Origin: Erysipelotrichales bacterium
Lineage (GTDB): Bacteria > Bacillota_I > Bacilli_A > Erysipelotrichales > Erysipelotrichaceae
Length of the DNA stretch: 64,000 nt
Assembly (NCBI GenBank): GCA_910576345.1
Contig: CAJTIT010000002.1
Coordinates: forward strand, 62,001 to 126,000
Reading direction: 5' to 3'
A program made the translations under genes and the position numbers. Within the stretch, counting starts at the first letter, position 1. The number at the start of each line of letters is the position of its first letter. The notes beneath the pieces were generated by a model. The model ran no database searches, was not told where the DNA came from, and saw nothing but the letters and a program-made list of their open reading frames with translations. Positions 35,481 to 41,902 of the stretch are shown in pieces.

Positions 35481-36581
35481 TTATTTTACCTCTACTTGAT
35501 CCTTAATTCCATCACTGACGATGAGTTGATAATTGCCGCTTTTGATAATGTCGGCATTTTTAGGAATGTCTAAAGTTTCATCAAAGACCCAGATTGCATC
35601 TACGTCCATACCATCTTTTTTTAGTTGTTCCAACAAAGCATTTCCTTGTTCATAAGACATTGTAAACAGCGTTGTGGATAAAATATCCGCAATACCGCTA
35701 TCTTTGGTAATTAGCGTTACAGAACGCATATATGTTGCAGGCATAAGCGTATGAGGATCGATGATATGGTGATATAATTTTCCATCCACTTCATAAGCAC
35801 GTTGATAATCACCACTGGTCACAAAGCTAACATCTTTATCCATGAGAACATTGGCAATAGAACTGTTTTGTTCACTGGATGGTAGCTGAATGCCCACATT
35901 CCACGGTGTGCCGTCTGGTTTTTCTCCGATGATTCGTACATTTCCTCCGGCATTGATAATCGCATGAGACAGTCCTTCGCTTTCCAGCTGTTTTGCGACT
36001 TGCTCGCAAGCATATCCTTTTGCGGCACTTCCTAAGTCAATCGATGCATCCGAATCATCAATATAAATGGTGGAAGCTTCTTCATCAATGATAACATGTT
36101 CCCATCCGGTATGTATTTTGGCTTGTTCCAGTTCTTTCATGGAAGGAATTTGCTTGATATTGTTTTGTGTGGCATTGTTTCGATAGTCATGCCAGATTTC
36201 AAAAACGGCGCCATATGTGACATCATACTGATACGCACTGTACACACCGTACTGTTTTGTTAATTGAATCAGCTTCAACAACTCTTGATCTACCTTAACG
36301 GGTGCGATGCCTGCCTGATCGTTGATCGTTTTCACGTTTTGAACGCCTTCATAGGACTGATAGCGGTCAAACAGCTGATGATAATGCATGAACAATTCTT
36401 TTGCACGCTTTTGATAAGTTTCAAATGTTGCTTCATCTTCCGTATATGCGATGAGTGTGATCACCGTGTCAAATCCGGCATCAAACATCTGTTCACTGTA
36501 TTTTTCAAACGCTGTGTTTGATTTTTCACAACCGAAAAGACATAATATGCATATCAATAAAAAACAATAATTTTTTTTCAT
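35481..36581 (-). CDS. apbE: FAD:protein FMN transferase ApbE (lipoprotein)
   Basis: A 366-residue lipoprotein (lipobox CLFGC, Cys near 18) of the ApbE flavin transferases. It has the FMN/FAD-binding blocks FDTVITLIAYT, GVYSAYQYDVTYG, ASIDLGSAAKGYACE, AIINAGGNVRIIG and HHIIDPHT. ApbE uses FAD and Mg to attach FMN through a phosphoester bond to Thr/Ser of S-G-A-T sites in RnfG, RnfD and NqrB/C on the outer face of the membrane. It is divergent from the rnf operon 235 bases away, which makes the Rnf subunits its obvious substrates. Confidence 0.95.
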   Translation of the reverse strand: MKKNYCFLLICILCLFGCEKSNTAFEKYSEQMFDAGFDTVITLIAYTEDEATFETYQKRAKELFMHYHQLFDRYQSYEGVQNVKTINDQAGIAPVKVDQELLKLIQLTKQYGVYSAYQYDVTYGAVFEIWHDYRNNATQNNIKQIPSMKELEQAKIHTGWEHVIIDEEASTIYIDDSDASIDLGSAAKGYACEQVAKQLESEGLSHAIINAGGNVRIIGEKPDGTPWNVGIQLPSSEQNSSIANVLMDKDVSFVTSGDYQRAYEVDGKLYHHIIDPHTLMPATYMRSVTLITKDSGIADILSTTLFTMSYEQGNALLEQLKKDGMDVDAIWVFDETLDIPKNADIIKSGNYQLIVSDGIKDQVEVK

Positions 36582-36762: not shown

Positions 36763-36819
36763 AGACATGGATTTTTATATGTGATATACACTACAAAAAG
36801 AAAGGTAAGGTGAACTGTG

Positions 36820-38112
36820 ATGTCATTGTTGCTTGGACCAATGCATCATCATATACCCGGACATAAAGATTTGAGCGAACATGGTGAAATCTTAGAAGTG
36901 AAGGCAGGAAAACAAGTATTTATTCCTCTTTATGCGTCTCATTCTACGAAGTTCGACATATTGGTAAAAGAAGGCGACCATGTTTGTGTCGGTACACTGC
37001 TTGCAAAATGCAGCGACCGTATGGTCATACCGATTTATTCCAGCGTGTCCGGAACCGTTACGGGAATTTCCAAAATTATGCATATGACCCTCAAACCAGT
37101 GGATCATATCGTTATCGAAAACGATGGAAAGATGGAAACAAAACCGCCGTTTCATCCCTTAGATTATCAAAAGGCAAGCAGAGAAGAATTGATTGCATTC
37201 ATGAAGGATGCCGGCATGATCGGGTTGGGCGGAGCCGGATTTCCAACCTATATGAAATATCAAGGCAATCAGGAAGTAAAAAAATTGATCATTAACGCTG
37301 TTGAGTGCGAACCATATATTACCGATGATCTAAAGCTGGTTGAGCAGCATTTCGATCTTGCGCTGACGGGAATTTTAGCGATGAAAAAAATGGCGCAGGC
37401 ACAAGAAGCGGTTATCGCAATCAAAAAGAGTCATTCAAGCCATTTGCAATTGGTGGAAACTGCTGTTGCGAATATCAATGGTGTTTCTGTTGTATCCGTG
37501 CCGGATGTATATCCAATGGGATGGGAACGTGTGTTGGTGCGCCAAATTATGAAAAAAGAATACAATCGTCTTCCAATCGAAGCAGGTGCTATCGTAAATA
37601 ATGTAACGACCGCATATGCGTTTGCGAATGCGCTGGTCAATGGCATGCCGTTTGTAAAAAGAACGGTGACGATCAGTGGCAATGCAATCAAAAATCCGCA
37701 GAATGTGTCATGTCCTTTGGGTGTGCCGGCAAGTGAGTTGATCGAGGCATGCGGCGGCTATACTTATGACGATGTGAAACTGATTGCCGGGGGTCCTATG
37801 ATGGGAAAAACAATTGTGAATGACAAATTTGTCGTTGACCGACATATGAATGCCATTACCGTATTGGCCAATCGGCCTTATGACAGCGTCGCTTGTTTGC
37901 GCTGCGGACAGTGCTGCGATGTATGTCCGGCCGGACTTCAGCCGGTAAGAATTGCGCAGGCTGGAAAAATCAAAGATAAGGCGATGATGGAAAAGCTTCA
38001 TGCGCTTGATTGCGTGGAGTGTGGTTTGTGCACTTATATTTGTCCATCCCGTCTGGATGTAACCGAGAACGTAAGAAAAGCAAAACGCCAGTTGACATTG
38101 GCGAAAAAGTAA
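36820..38112 (+). CDS. rnfC: Electron transport complex subunit RnfC
   Basis: This 430-residue peripheral subunit brings electrons between NAD(H) and the complex. It shows the N-terminal barrel (residues to about 120), the NADH/FMN-binding GLGGAGFPTYMK (near 133), the INAVECEPYITDD loop, and two ferredoxin-type clusters near 358-369 (CLRCGQCCDVCP) and 398-410 (CVECGLCTYICP). Starts ATG 36820 and GTG 36817 are both possible after GGTAAGG. First gene of the operon; rnfD follows after 12 bases. Confidence 0.95.
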   Translation: MSLLLGPMHHHIPGHKDLSEHGEILEVKAGKQVFIPLYASHSTKFDILVKEGDHVCVGTLLAKCSDRMVIPIYSSVSGTVTGISKIMHMTLKPVDHIVIENDGKMETKPPFHPLDYQKASREELIAFMKDAGMIGLGGAGFPTYMKYQGNQEVKKLIINAVECEPYITDDLKLVEQHFDLALTGILAMKKMAQAQEAVIAIKKSHSSHLQLVETAVANINGVSVVSVPDVYPMGWERVLVRQIMKKEYNRLPIEAGAIVNNVTTAYAFANALVNGMPFVKRTVTISGNAIKNPQNVSCPLGVPASELIEACGGYTYDDVKLIAGGPMMGKTIVNDKFVVDRHMNAITVLANRPYDSVACLRCGQCCDVCPAGLQPVRIAQAGKIKDKAMMEKLHALDCVECGLCTYICPSRLDVTENVRKAKRQLTLAKK

Positions 38113-38124
38113 GGAGGGTACGAC

Positions 38125-39630
38125 ATGAAATATACATTTAATGTAAGCCCAAACTTGCGGCAGAGTCAAAGTACAAAACGCATTATGCTGGAACTGACCA
38201 TTGCGCTGTTAGGCGTCTATGCCTTTTCTTTATTCTATTATCAGATGGAAGAAGGAAGCGAATATACAGTACAAGCGTTGATTTTAATGGCAACCTCTTT
38301 GATTGTAGCGTTTGTGACAGAAACAATATGGGCGTTATGTAAGAAGCAAAATGTAAAAACATATTTGTCCACTTCATTTGGATGGACGACAGCGATGATT
38401 TTAACATTGATGTGTCCTATTTCTATAACTCCCTATGCACTAGGAATTGCGACATTCTTTGCGATATTTGTCGGCAGAATTCTATTTGGCGGATTTGGAC
38501 AGAATATCTTCAATCCGGCTGCTTTTGGACGCGCTGTATTGTTTGCCAGTTTTGCAGGTGCGACAACGGATATTGTGACAAGCGCAACACCGACGACGAT
38601 TATGGCAAGCGAATATAATTGGTTGACGTTGGATAGTTCCATGATCCAGTCGTTGATGACAAAGACCGGCGGATTATGGAATATGTTTACCGGTTGGTAT
38701 CCGGGTGCATTAGGTGAAACAAGCACGGTGTTGATTTTGTTGCTTGGCGTTATTTTGGCATTGCGTAAAGTTATTGATTGGCGTGTACCACTCATTTATC
38801 TAGGAAGTATATTTGTTCTTAGCAGCGCTATCGCACTGTTTGCGGGAATGAACGATTGGTTATGGTATCCTGTTTTTCATATTTGTACCGGTGGTGTGGC
38901 GTTTGGCGCAGTGTTTATGTTAACGGATCCGGTGACATCTCCGGTCAGTGCACAGGGACGATGTATTTTCGCACTGGGCGCCGGTATCATTACTGTGCTG
39001 ATTCGTGTATTGGCAAATTTGCCGGAAGGATGTTTGTATTCAATTTTGATGATGAATATGTTGACACCGGCTATTGATCAGGCATTGAGTGGAAAGCAAC
39101 TCGCCATGCGTAAAAAAACATGGATCGTTTTGAGCGTTTTGAGCATATTGGGCATTGGTTCTATGGCATTGGCTGTACAAGCGATAGAACCGGCAAAACC
39201 AAAACCGGTGGAAAAGCCAAAAACAGTAGAAATATCAATGAGCGACGAATATGTGAATTCGCTGAAAGCATCGATTGATCAAACAAAAGACAATGGGGAT
39301 GGTACGACGACTTACACCGTTACAGCAGAAGGTTTTGCGGCAAAAGAAGGACCTAATTATCCAGACTACAATCATCCGTTTGAACCAAATGTGTTTGAAA
39401 TCACCATTGAAAATGAGACAAACATTATCAAAAGCGTACGTCCGATTGTGATCAAAGATACGGAATATATCGGAGATAAGATTCAACATGAAAAATATCT
39501 GAACCAGTTTATCGGTAAAGATATCACAACGATGGAACAAGTTGAAAAGAATGATGTCGTTTCCGGCGCCACATTCTCTGTAAAATCCAGTATGCGCGCT
39601 TTGTTGGAAGTGCAGAAAGCATTACAGTAA
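38125..39630 (+). CDS. rnfD: RnfD fused to an extra FMN-binding (RnfG-like) domain
   Basis: Residues 1 to ~350 are a standard RnfD: about nine membrane helices, FGGFGQNIFNPAAFGR, the covalent-FMN region VTSATPTTI (near residue 155) and FMLTDPVTSPVS. Usual RnfD ends near 300-350. Here ~140 more residues follow after a Pro/Lys linker (AKPKPVEKPKTVE): an extracytoplasmic FMN_bind domain ending in NDVVSGATFSVKSSMRALLE, with its own S-G-A-T flavinylation motif. The complex would thus carry three covalent FMN sites (RnfD core, RnfD tail, RnfG). AAGGAGG precedes the ATG. Confidence 0.93.
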   Translation: MKYTFNVSPNLRQSQSTKRIMLELTIALLGVYAFSLFYYQMEEGSEYTVQALILMATSLIVAFVTETIWALCKKQNVKTYLSTSFGWTTAMILTLMCPISITPYALGIATFFAIFVGRILFGGFGQNIFNPAAFGRAVLFASFAGATTDIVTSATPTTIMASEYNWLTLDSSMIQSLMTKTGGLWNMFTGWYPGALGETSTVLILLLGVILALRKVIDWRVPLIYLGSIFVLSSAIALFAGMNDWLWYPVFHICTGGVAFGAVFMLTDPVTSPVSAQGRCIFALGAGIITVLIRVLANLPEGCLYSILMMNMLTPAIDQALSGKQLAMRKKTWIVLSVLSILGIGSMALAVQAIEPAKPKPVEKPKTVEISMSDEYVNSLKASIDQTKDNGDGTTTYTVTAEGFAAKEGPNYPDYNHPFEPNVFEITIENETNIIKSVRPIVIKDTEYIGDKIQHEKYLNQFIGKDITTMEQVEKNDVVSGATFSVKSSMRALLEVQKALQ

Positions 39631-39643
39631 GGAGGTAAGGAAA

Positions 39644-40156
39644 ATGAAAAAAGTATATCATCTCACATTCTTCTTAGCTCTGATTGCGGCCATTGCCGGA
39701 GGAGCACTGGCATGTGCAAATGCACTTACGGCGCCGATTGTGGAAGCGAATGCGCTGGCAGCGGAAAAGGAAAATCTGAAACTGTTGTTTCCCGATGCAA
39801 AGGATGCAGACTTTGAAGAAGTAAGCGTAAAAGACGCTGAAACAATCGAAAAAATATTTAAAGTAAACAATCAGGGAACGGTATTCAAAATGAAAGTCAG
39901 CGGTTATAAAGAAGGAACCAGTTTTATGGTCGCTTTAGATGACGAAGCCAATATCATGGATTTTGTGGTCATATCCAATGGTGATACGCAAGGCATTGGT
40001 ACAAAGGTCACTGAGGAAAGCTTTGCCAATGCATTGAAAAGCAAAAACAGTGTCGAAGATACGCTGGATACCATTTCCGGCGCAACGGTTTCCAGCCGTC
40101 CCATTGTGGATGGTATCAAAGAAGCCGGCGATTATTTATTAAATCAACTGAAATAG
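39644..40156 (+). CDS. rnfG: Electron transport complex subunit RnfG
   Basis: A 170-residue protein with one N-terminal membrane helix (about 6-28) and an extracytoplasmic FMN_bind domain whose T in TISGATVSSRPIVDG is the expected FMN attachment site for ApbE. Short for the family (often 180-210 residues). AAGGAGG lies upstream. It sits directly after the RnfD tail that carries a paralogous FMN_bind domain. Confidence 0.93.
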   Translation: MKKVYHLTFFLALIAAIAGGALACANALTAPIVEANALAAEKENLKLLFPDAKDADFEEVSVKDAETIEKIFKVNNQGTVFKMKVSGYKEGTSFMVALDDEANIMDFVVISNGDTQGIGTKVTEESFANALKSKNSVEDTLDTISGATVSSRPIVDGIKEAGDYLLNQLK

Positions 40157-40168
40157 GAGGATGCAGTC

Positions 40169-40822
40169 ATGAATCGAAAAGAAAACTTTACAGCCGGATT
40201 CATTCGCGAAAATCCTGTTTTCGGATTGTATCTGGGATTATGTTCTACACTTGCCATTACCACAACACTCAATAATGCGATCGGTATGGGCGTTGCGGTC
40301 ATTCTTGTGCTTGTCATGAGCAATGTGATTATTTCCTGCATCAGAAAAATTACACCTAGTGAAATTCGCATTCCTGTCTATATTGTGATCATTGCGACAC
40401 TGGTAAAAATTATTCAGATGCTGATCAAAGCGTATGCACCTGCACTGGATAGTGCACTGGGCGTATTTATACCGCTGATTGTCGTCAACTGTATTATTTT
40501 AGGACGTGCAGAAGCATTTGCGTCCAAAAACAGCATCTTTGATTCTGCGCTGGATGGATTGGGCATGGGCATCGGATATACTTGCTCGATCATTGTTATG
40601 TCGATCATACGTCAAGTGCTGGCGACCGGCATACTGTCGTTTGAAAACCCGTTCAATGTGGAACAAGTGCTCTTTCAAGTACAGATCATACCGGAGGACT
40701 ATATTATTTCCATGTTCTCACAGCCGATTGGCGCATTTATCACATTTGCGATGCTTGCCGGTATTCTGGCCGCATGCAAAAATGCGAAAGCAGCCAAAGC
40801 ACAAGCAAAGGAGGGGAACTAG
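40169..40822 (+). CDS. rnfE: Electron transport complex subunit RnfE
   Basis: A 217-residue integral subunit with six helices, homologous to NqrD. Marks: FIRENPVFGLYLGLCSTLAIT, LVKIIQMLIKAYAP, PLIVVNCIILGRAEAFA. With RnfA it forms the inverted membrane pair that holds a [2Fe-2S] cluster between symmetry-related cysteines, such as the one in VVNC. TAGGAGG precedes the ATG. Confidence 0.95.
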   Translation: MNRKENFTAGFIRENPVFGLYLGLCSTLAITTTLNNAIGMGVAVILVLVMSNVIISCIRKITPSEIRIPVYIVIIATLVKIIQMLIKAYAPALDSALGVFIPLIVVNCIILGRAEAFASKNSIFDSALDGLGMGIGYTCSIIVMSIIRQVLATGILSFENPFNVEQVLFQVQIIPEDYIISMFSQPIGAFITFAMLAGILAACKNAKAAKAQAKEGN

Positions 40823-40825
40823 ACT

Positions 40826-41407
40826 ATGGATCTCAGTAATCTATTTGTGATGTTCATCACTTTCACATTGATCAACAACGTTGTTTTGAATCAATTCTTA
40901 GGTATCTGTCCGTTTATGGGCGTTTCTAAAAAAAGCAGTTCAGCCCTCGGTATGGGCGCAGCCGTAACATTTGTCATTGTCGCTGCCAGTCTTGTCACTT
41001 ATGGTTTGTATTATTGGGTGTTGGAACCGGCAGATTTGGAATATATGGATTTGATTACCTTTATTCTTGTGATTGCTTCTTTGGTACAGTTGGTGGAAAT
41101 GATCATAAAAAAGACAAGTCCCGGACTGTATAAGGCTTTAGGTGTCTATCTTCCACTGATTACCACAAATTGCGTAGTCTTAAATGTAACATTGAATAAT
41201 ATTACTGAAGGCTACAACTTTGCAGAAATGCTGACATATTCTATTGCGATTCCGGTTGGATTCACCTTGGTGCTCTATATATTTTCCACCATTCGTGAGC
41301 GTTTGGAATTAAGCAATGTGCCGCAGGCATTCAAAGGTAATCCGATTGCGTTGATTGTGGCGGGGATGATGGCGCTGGCATTCAGCGGATTGGCGGGTCT
41401 TGTATGA
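40826..41407 (+). CDS. rnfA: Electron transport complex subunit RnfA
   Basis: A 193-residue six-helix subunit, homologous to NqrE. Marks: NNVVLNQFLGICPFMGVS, VQLVEMIIKKTSPGLYKALG, PLITTNCVVLN and RERLELSNVP. GICP and TTNC hold the cysteines expected to bind the membrane [2Fe-2S] cluster with RnfE. GGAGGGG precedes the ATG. The stop overlaps the next small gene (ATGA). Confidence 0.96.
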   Translation: MDLSNLFVMFITFTLINNVVLNQFLGICPFMGVSKKSSSALGMGAAVTFVIVAASLVTYGLYYWVLEPADLEYMDLITFILVIASLVQLVEMIIKKTSPGLYKALGVYLPLITTNCVVLNVTLNNITEGYNFAEMLTYSIAIPVGFTLVLYIFSTIRERLELSNVPQAFKGNPIALIVAGMMALAFSGLAGLV

Positions 41408-41580
41408 TTCTTGCCGTTCTGTTCTTTGTTGCATTAGCGCTGATTTATGCAACGCTGTACTATTTCAATCATCAAACACCACTGCCGAAAGACTGCGAAA
41501 ATATTAAGGCTGAGTGCCATGGCTGTCATGACACCGGCTGTGGCAATCATCCATCGCATGATATAAAGAAAGGAAGTTGA
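41404..41580 (+). CDS. Small Cys/His-rich membrane protein in the rnf operon (NqrM-like layout)
   Basis: A 58-residue frame starts at the ATG overlapping the rnfA stop and ends 4 bases before the rnfB start, filling the gap exactly. It has one N-terminal membrane helix (about 2-21) and a soluble tail with four cysteines and five histidines: C31, C38, C41, C46 in the pattern C-x6-C-x2-C-x4-C, including CHGCH. NqrM (DUF539), the iron-delivery factor for the NqrD/NqrE cluster, is also a one-helix, four-cysteine protein encoded next to those subunits; the spacing differs, so homology is not claimed. Iron or Fe-S handling for RnfA/RnfE is the leading guess. CxxCH also fits haem c, but no maturation genes are seen. 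Confidence 0.75.
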   Translation: MILAVLFFVALALIYATLYYFNHQTPLPKDCENIKAECHGCHDTGCGNHPSHDIKKGS

Positions 41581-41584
41581 ATGT

Positions 41585-41902
41585 ATGGAAGCTATTTTGA
41601 TCGCTATCATTATGATGCTGGTGCTTGGCGCACTACTGGGTTTGGGCCTAGGAATCGCTGATCGCTATTTGCGGGTGGAAGTGGATGAGCGTATTGAAAC
41701 GGTGACTTCCATGCTGCCAAACTATAATTGCGGAAGTTGCGGTTATGCAGGCTGTTTTGGCTTGGCGGAAGCGCTGGTCAATGGCGAAGTGAGCGTGGTG
41801 GGAACTTGTCGTCCGTGTAAAAGCGAACAAAGAGAAAAAATCGCAGAATATTTAAACACGACACCAGGTACCGATGGTACTTGTGTGAAAGTAAAACCTT
41901 AA
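41585..41902 (+). CDS. rnfB: Minimal RnfB: membrane anchor plus one [4Fe-4S] module
   Basis: A 105-residue protein with an N-terminal helix (about 3-23) and the RnfB-type cluster C49-x2-C52-x4-C57-x17-C75 in YNCGSCGYAGCFGLAEALV. Normal RnfB continues with two or more ferredoxin clusters (180-330 residues); here the gene stops 25 residues after the first module and a terminator follows immediately, so nothing has been cut off by a frameshift nearby. RnfB is the entry point for ferredoxin electrons, so the route must be shorter in this complex. Confidence 0.88.
   Translation: MEAILIAIIMMLVLGALLGLGLGIADRYLRVEVDERIETVTSMLPNYNCGSCGYAGCFGLAEALVNGEVSVVGTCRPCKSEQREKIAEYLNTTPGTDGTCVKVKP

Follow-up and report, generated by a model that had tools for sequence, protein, structure and literature searches.

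A small cysteine-rich membrane protein accompanying RNF complexes with a short RnfB: a candidate metal or assembly factor

What is encoded between rnfA and rnfB in an Erysipelotrichales genome, and does its product serve the RNF pump? RNF drives ferredoxin-based energy metabolism in many anaerobes. In our window, the whole stretch of 64,000 nucleotides that was analysed (GCA_910576345.1, contig CAJTIT010000002.1, positions 62,001 to 126,000), the gene order is rnfC-D-G-E-A, a 177-base frame and rnfB. The features of the locus, in window coordinates, are as follows.

35481..36581, minus strand: apbE (flavin transferase), divergent, upstream of the rnf operon (PF02424, E 2.2e-68)
36817..38112, plus strand: rnfC (PF01512, PF13375, PF10531)
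38125..39630, plus strand: rnfD (PF03116, E 1.1e-79)
39644..40156, plus strand: rnfG (PF04205 FMN_bind, E 1.9e-11)
40169..40822, plus strand: rnfE (PF02508, E 2.4e-60)
40826..41407, plus strand: rnfA (PF02508, E 1.7e-55)
41404..41407, plus strand: ATGA, in which the stop of rnfA and the start of the small gene overlap (from the sequence)
41404..41580, plus strand: small Cys-rich membrane protein gene, an ATG...TGA ORF of 58 aa between rnfA and rnfB
41407..41475, plus strand: predicted transmembrane helix, residues 2-24 (AlphaFold2)
41494..41541, plus strand: Cys motif C31-x6-C38-x2-C41-x4-C46 (alignments)
41585..41902, plus strand: rnfB, short form of 105 aa with a helix and one FeS domain and no C-terminal ferredoxin domain (PF04060 only, E 1.2e-11)

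An earlier, sequence-only reading of this DNA held that the frame fills the rnfA-rnfB gap exactly, and the sequence confirms it: beyond the ATGA overlap, four bases (41581-41584) lie between the stop of the small gene and the rnfB ATG (41585). The encoded protein is MILAVLFFVALALIYATLYYFNHQTPLPKDCENIKAECHGCHDTGCGNHPSHDIKKGS. The membrane helix and the cysteines C31, C38, C41 and C46 described in that reading are all present in the ORF, as are the five histidines it counted (23, 39, 42, 49 and 52), but the histidines are not conserved among members of the family. The window rnfB is barely above the cut-off of TIGR01944, covering profile positions 1-92 of 190. RnfD has 501 aa and a possible C-terminal FMN-binding-like extension (FMN_bind E 0.0031, below the cut-off).

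The small frame is a conserved gene. It was detected by tblastn in 6/6 other genomes of the same genus that were searched (70-71% identity), and also in most genomes of the family. A hand-made consensus peptide, a type of query that reaches close relatives only, recovered 74 named genome loci, and in all of them the gene is flanked by rnfA and rnfB; they belong to Dielma, Faecalitalea, Faecalicoccus, Floccifex, Anaerorhabdus, Catenisphaera, Solobacterium and other genera, and in one (L136) the frame was visible only in the later profile alignment. A Ka/Ks analysis, which had been proposed as a check, gave a median dN/dS of 0.27 (267 pairs, none above 1), with values of 0.03-0.15 in most close pairs. 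Conservation and dN/dS together show that the frame is a genuine gene that codes for protein and is held by purifying selection. Loss of the frame or of its cysteines in related rnf operons, which would have refuted the earlier interpretation, was also looked for and not found; the frame and three of the cysteines are kept. A chance ORF, as so short a frame might be, is ruled out by the conservation across the class and by dN/dS. Profile searches that included PDB gave no match of the protein to any Pfam, NCBIfam or PDB family, and for this reason the members are probably annotated as hypothetical in databases or were missed.

The members have in common one membrane helix, an N-x5-P motif and C-x2-C-x4-C, with N22, P28, C38, C41 and C46 invariant in alignments of 25, 41 and 64 rows. 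C31 is found in 108 of 134 distinct members and is missing in 26. A Cys in the C-terminal tail is present in 17/26 members lacking C31 versus 6/108 members that have it (p 1.4e-10, with kinship ignored), and the swap is seen in two or more family groups. Such loss of C31 with gain of a tail Cys is what one would expect if a metal site had four ligands and the fourth could move, and nine of the 134 members retain three Cys only. AlphaFold2 predicts a helix at residues 2-24, with pLDDT >90 across the first 20 residues, and a poorly defined tail (pLDDT ~53-76) in which the Cys motif forms two short helical turns. The positive charge is greater after the helix than before it in 72 members, against 20 with the reverse, and from this more positive C-terminal flank the tail is predicted to be cytoplasmic. 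The Cys compensation suggests a cytoplasmic metal site in the tail of this small protein. The window protein reads CHGCH, noted earlier as a match to a haem c motif, but only 20 of 134 members have CxxCH, which is conserved in c-type cytochromes, and with a tail predicted on the cytoplasmic side the haem c assignment was dropped. Taken with the conservation and dN/dS, these results make a chance ORF or a haem c protein hardly conceivable.

The distribution was surveyed in an even sample of 247 genomes of the class, which, judging by the named relatives and GTDB taxonomy, we take to be Bacilli. The profile was built from 41 diverse members; the searches covered the class and, with less sensitivity, close relatives elsewhere. 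The small protein was found in 123 of the 247 genomes, PF02508 (RnfA/E-type) in 143 and PF04060 (the RnfB FeS domain) in 141. Both domains are present in 133 genomes, 120 of them with the small protein. Most RNF genomes of the class have an RnfB of ~92-130 aa without a C-terminal ferredoxin domain. Among RNF genomes with this short RnfB, 120/128 encode the small protein, versus 3/119 of the other genomes (2x2 table 120, 8, 3, 116; odds ratio 580; Fisher p 4e-56, kinship of genomes ignored). Co-occurrence and selection are thus those of an RNF-associated accessory protein. Because in this class little more than a helix and one FeS domain is nearly always left of RnfB, the small protein appears as the companion of a stripped-down RNF. 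No paper on a short RnfB, or on RNF in Erysipelotrichia, was found in the literature.

There are 13 RNF genomes without the small protein. Five have a long RnfB of 267-277 aa with ferredoxin domains; three of them were read directly (G133, G180 and G193), and the other two (G238 and G277) were assigned because of their genus, which all five share. Of the rest, four are tiny genomes of family f12, two are incomplete (G094 55%, G271 82%), and in G280 a contig end cuts the RNF locus. The last, G284, has a divergent frame at this position, with identical overlaps and the motif CMNCKEKC. A further 10 genomes have PF02508 but no RnfB; none of the 10 has the small protein, and seven have an NqrF-type protein, that is, NQR. 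Family f9 (L157:5628-6188; G088, G109, G117) has an RnfB of ~183-194 aa with two tandem PF04060 domains, and the small protein is present there too. Two extra copies of the small protein (L140:5269-5460 and L151:5008-5151) adjoin genes resembling those for a copper-transporting ATPase and metal-binding domains; the L151 copy is without the last Cys.

The gene is not always in the operon. In ~30 of the 120 genomes, judged by contig positions, it lies away from rnf (families f17, f22, f6, f20 and f4), and where the rnf locus of such genomes was read, rnfA directly adjoins rnfB. The neighbours in these cases, read by eye, are aspS, a ThiF/TcdA-like gene and dCMP deaminase, or ung. One conserved arrangement, also read by eye (L237-L241, L245, L247-L251), consists of aspS, the ThiF/TcdA-like gene, the small gene, dCMP deaminase, membrane genes and lspA. 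On the RnfA tree the cis and trans states each account for ~3 changes, and NQR forms a separate clade. As the small gene is kept with RNF also when outside the operon, its co-occurrence with RNF is more than operon hitch-hiking. The conservation and this link to RNF bear out one part of the earlier suggestion, namely a Cys-rich membrane protein that had been overlooked and is dedicated to RNF.

The small protein probably either helps to load metal into the pump or is an overlooked small subunit. Our best reading, put forward tentatively from sequence comparisons, is that it may be a dedicated RNF-specific metal or assembly factor. Anchored in the membrane by one helix, it would serve the short-RnfB RNF of class Bacilli, and in its cytoplasmic tail C-x2-C-x4-C, with a fourth Cys before or after this core, would bind a metal, most likely iron. 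While RNF is being assembled, the iron, or a nascent cluster, would then go to one of its subunits. In the RNF core, RnfA and RnfE have a [2Fe-2S] cluster between them (PMC12174285), and the target could be this site or, in the short RnfB, the lone [4Fe-4S] domain. The near-restriction to short-RnfB genomes, the purifying selection and the three invariant Cys with a compensated fourth favour such a factor, as does the predicted position of the tail on the cytoplasmic side, where iron is loaded. A gene that has moved into unrelated operons fits a maturation factor better than a stoichiometric subunit, and there is the precedent of NqrM beside apbE, a gene that also adjoins the rnf operon of the window. 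Against an assembly factor stand the nine three-Cys members, the long-RnfB RNF of the same class that does without the small protein (5 genomes, one genus), and the seven NQR-only genomes, which have the same core module. In these seven genomes both the small protein and NqrM were undetected, and no small Cys-rich ORF adjoined nqr in the loci read, so a cluster of the RnfA/E type shared by the two pumps apparently forms even when no such factor is present. This weakens iron delivery to RnfA/RnfE as a function that RNF and NQR would have in common.

A class-wide family tied to RNF can be tested directly as a candidate maturation factor of RNF or as a candidate missing subunit. Omitting the small gene could also make heterologous expression of such RNF complexes fail.

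Among known proteins, RnfB offers one comparison, and with it comes the main rival to an assembly factor. In a normal RnfB the C-terminal domain has two to seven [4Fe-4S] clusters and accepts electrons from ferredoxin (PMC12174285). The small protein could be an extra electron-carrying subunit offsetting the shortened RnfB, which we consider possible although not the better supposition: tethered near RnfB, it would use one Cys-ligated cluster to relay electrons among ferredoxin, RnfB and RnfA/RnfE. Its occurrence with the short RnfB and absence with an RnfB of 267-277 aa would fit this role, as would its absence from NQR-only genomes, a gene that adjoins rnfB and a fourth Cys that is kept or replaced; yet the long-RnfB contrast comes from one genus, nine members have three Cys only, and ~30 genomes encode the protein away from rnf. 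In RnfB, C-x2-C-x4-C is part of the FeS domain in which its [4Fe-4S] cluster is bound. The small protein resembles the N-terminal part of RnfB in having a helix followed by motif cysteines of the same spacing and in belonging with the same complex, but differs in having no fixed downstream fourth Cys. PF04060 did not match the window protein or the 25 members in hmmscan. An hhalign comparison with RnfB gave 51%, with the helices and three Cys in register, a point for the electron-carrying subunit, but 142/150 tail-shuffled RnfB profiles score as high or higher. Homology to RnfB is for that reason not demonstrated, and paralogy, attractive as the register is, lacks significance. Going further, it is possible, but less likely than not, that the RNF of class Bacilli is a distinct form of the pump, in which RnfB would be trimmed to a single FeS domain and the ferredoxin domain would be replaced by the small protein, as a genuine electron-carrying subunit with a four-Cys cluster.

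RnfH is a second comparison: an accessory RNF subunit with no cofactor and with no homologous subunit in other complexes (PMC12174285). Like RnfH, the small protein is an accessory RNF component found in some lineages only; unlike RnfH, it has a Cys site. By analogy its part might be structural, as a small subunit, or that of a chaperone in assembly; its Cys site would hold zinc or structural iron, and it would do no more than stabilise the short-RnfB complex. This we judge unlikely: the same co-occurrence figures (120/128 and 3/119) and the precedent of an extra small subunit without a cofactor would accord with it, but three invariant Cys and a compensated fourth point to a specific site, and the gene often leaves the rnf operon.

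FeoB-associated proteins are small, single-helix, Cys-rich proteins common in Firmicutes, and their motif Cx3-5Cx2-3Cx6-8C is described as commonly tied to iron binding (PMC8749426). The small protein is alike in size, single helix and Cys content. PF12669 gave weak matches in 8/25 members, the best with E 0.0052, none reaching the gathering cut-off; two separate PF12669 genes above the cut-off are present elsewhere in the window's genome. By eye, no feoB was recognised near the small gene in the rnfA-rnfB or other operons fetched. The hhalign score (62%) is above full column shuffles, but 36/150 tail-only shuffles score as high, so that it rests on the helix. With these three results the FeoB-associated family was rejected.

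Insertion of the [2Fe-2S] cluster of NQR apparently requires NqrM, a small membrane protein encoded beside apbE (PMC12174285; PMC6209661). The likeness in shape to NqrM noted in the sequence-only reading holds, and apbE is a neighbour in both cases, but a relationship is not supported. PF04400 (NqrM) matched 0/25 members at E up to 1 and found nothing in the window's genome or the 247 class genomes, while the same search found NqrM in 4/4 records known to carry it. An hhalign probability of ~10% was equalled or exceeded by tail-shuffled columns in 25/150 cases. Since tail shuffles so often match the scores (25, 36 and 142 of 150 for NqrM, FeoB-associated proteins and RnfB), no kinship to any of the three is established. 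NqrM sequences have GSCGG, 9 residues and C-x(1-2)-C, in contrast to C-x6-C-x2-C-x4-C in the small protein; NqrM occurs with NQR genes, usually after apbE, whereas the small protein is linked to RNF. The membrane-proximal Cys (C31) is the one most often lost in the small protein, while the first Cys of NqrM is reportedly the essential one (Kostyrko, 2016). In 12 NQR loci of the class no NqrM-like small Cys-rich ORF was seen beside nqr; these operons (L255-L266; families f11, f14, f15 and f22) encode an NqrF-like subunit of 360-370 aa, and NqrM was undetected. NqrM homology was thus rejected. That the small protein is a divergent NqrM (PF04400) serving RnfA/RnfE is, despite the same shape, the apbE neighbour and homologous target subunits, very improbable given the profile and hhalign results, the other Cys spacing and a dispensable membrane-proximal Cys. 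To our knowledge, NqrM is the sole factor known for building an intramembrane [2Fe-2S] cluster, and this for NQR alone. As a dedicated metal or assembly factor, the small protein would be NqrM's counterpart for RNF, their kinship not being demonstrable: both have one N-terminal helix, a short tail with four Cys and apbE nearby, and each is linked to a pump with a homologous core, in which NqrD/NqrE correspond to RnfE/RnfA.
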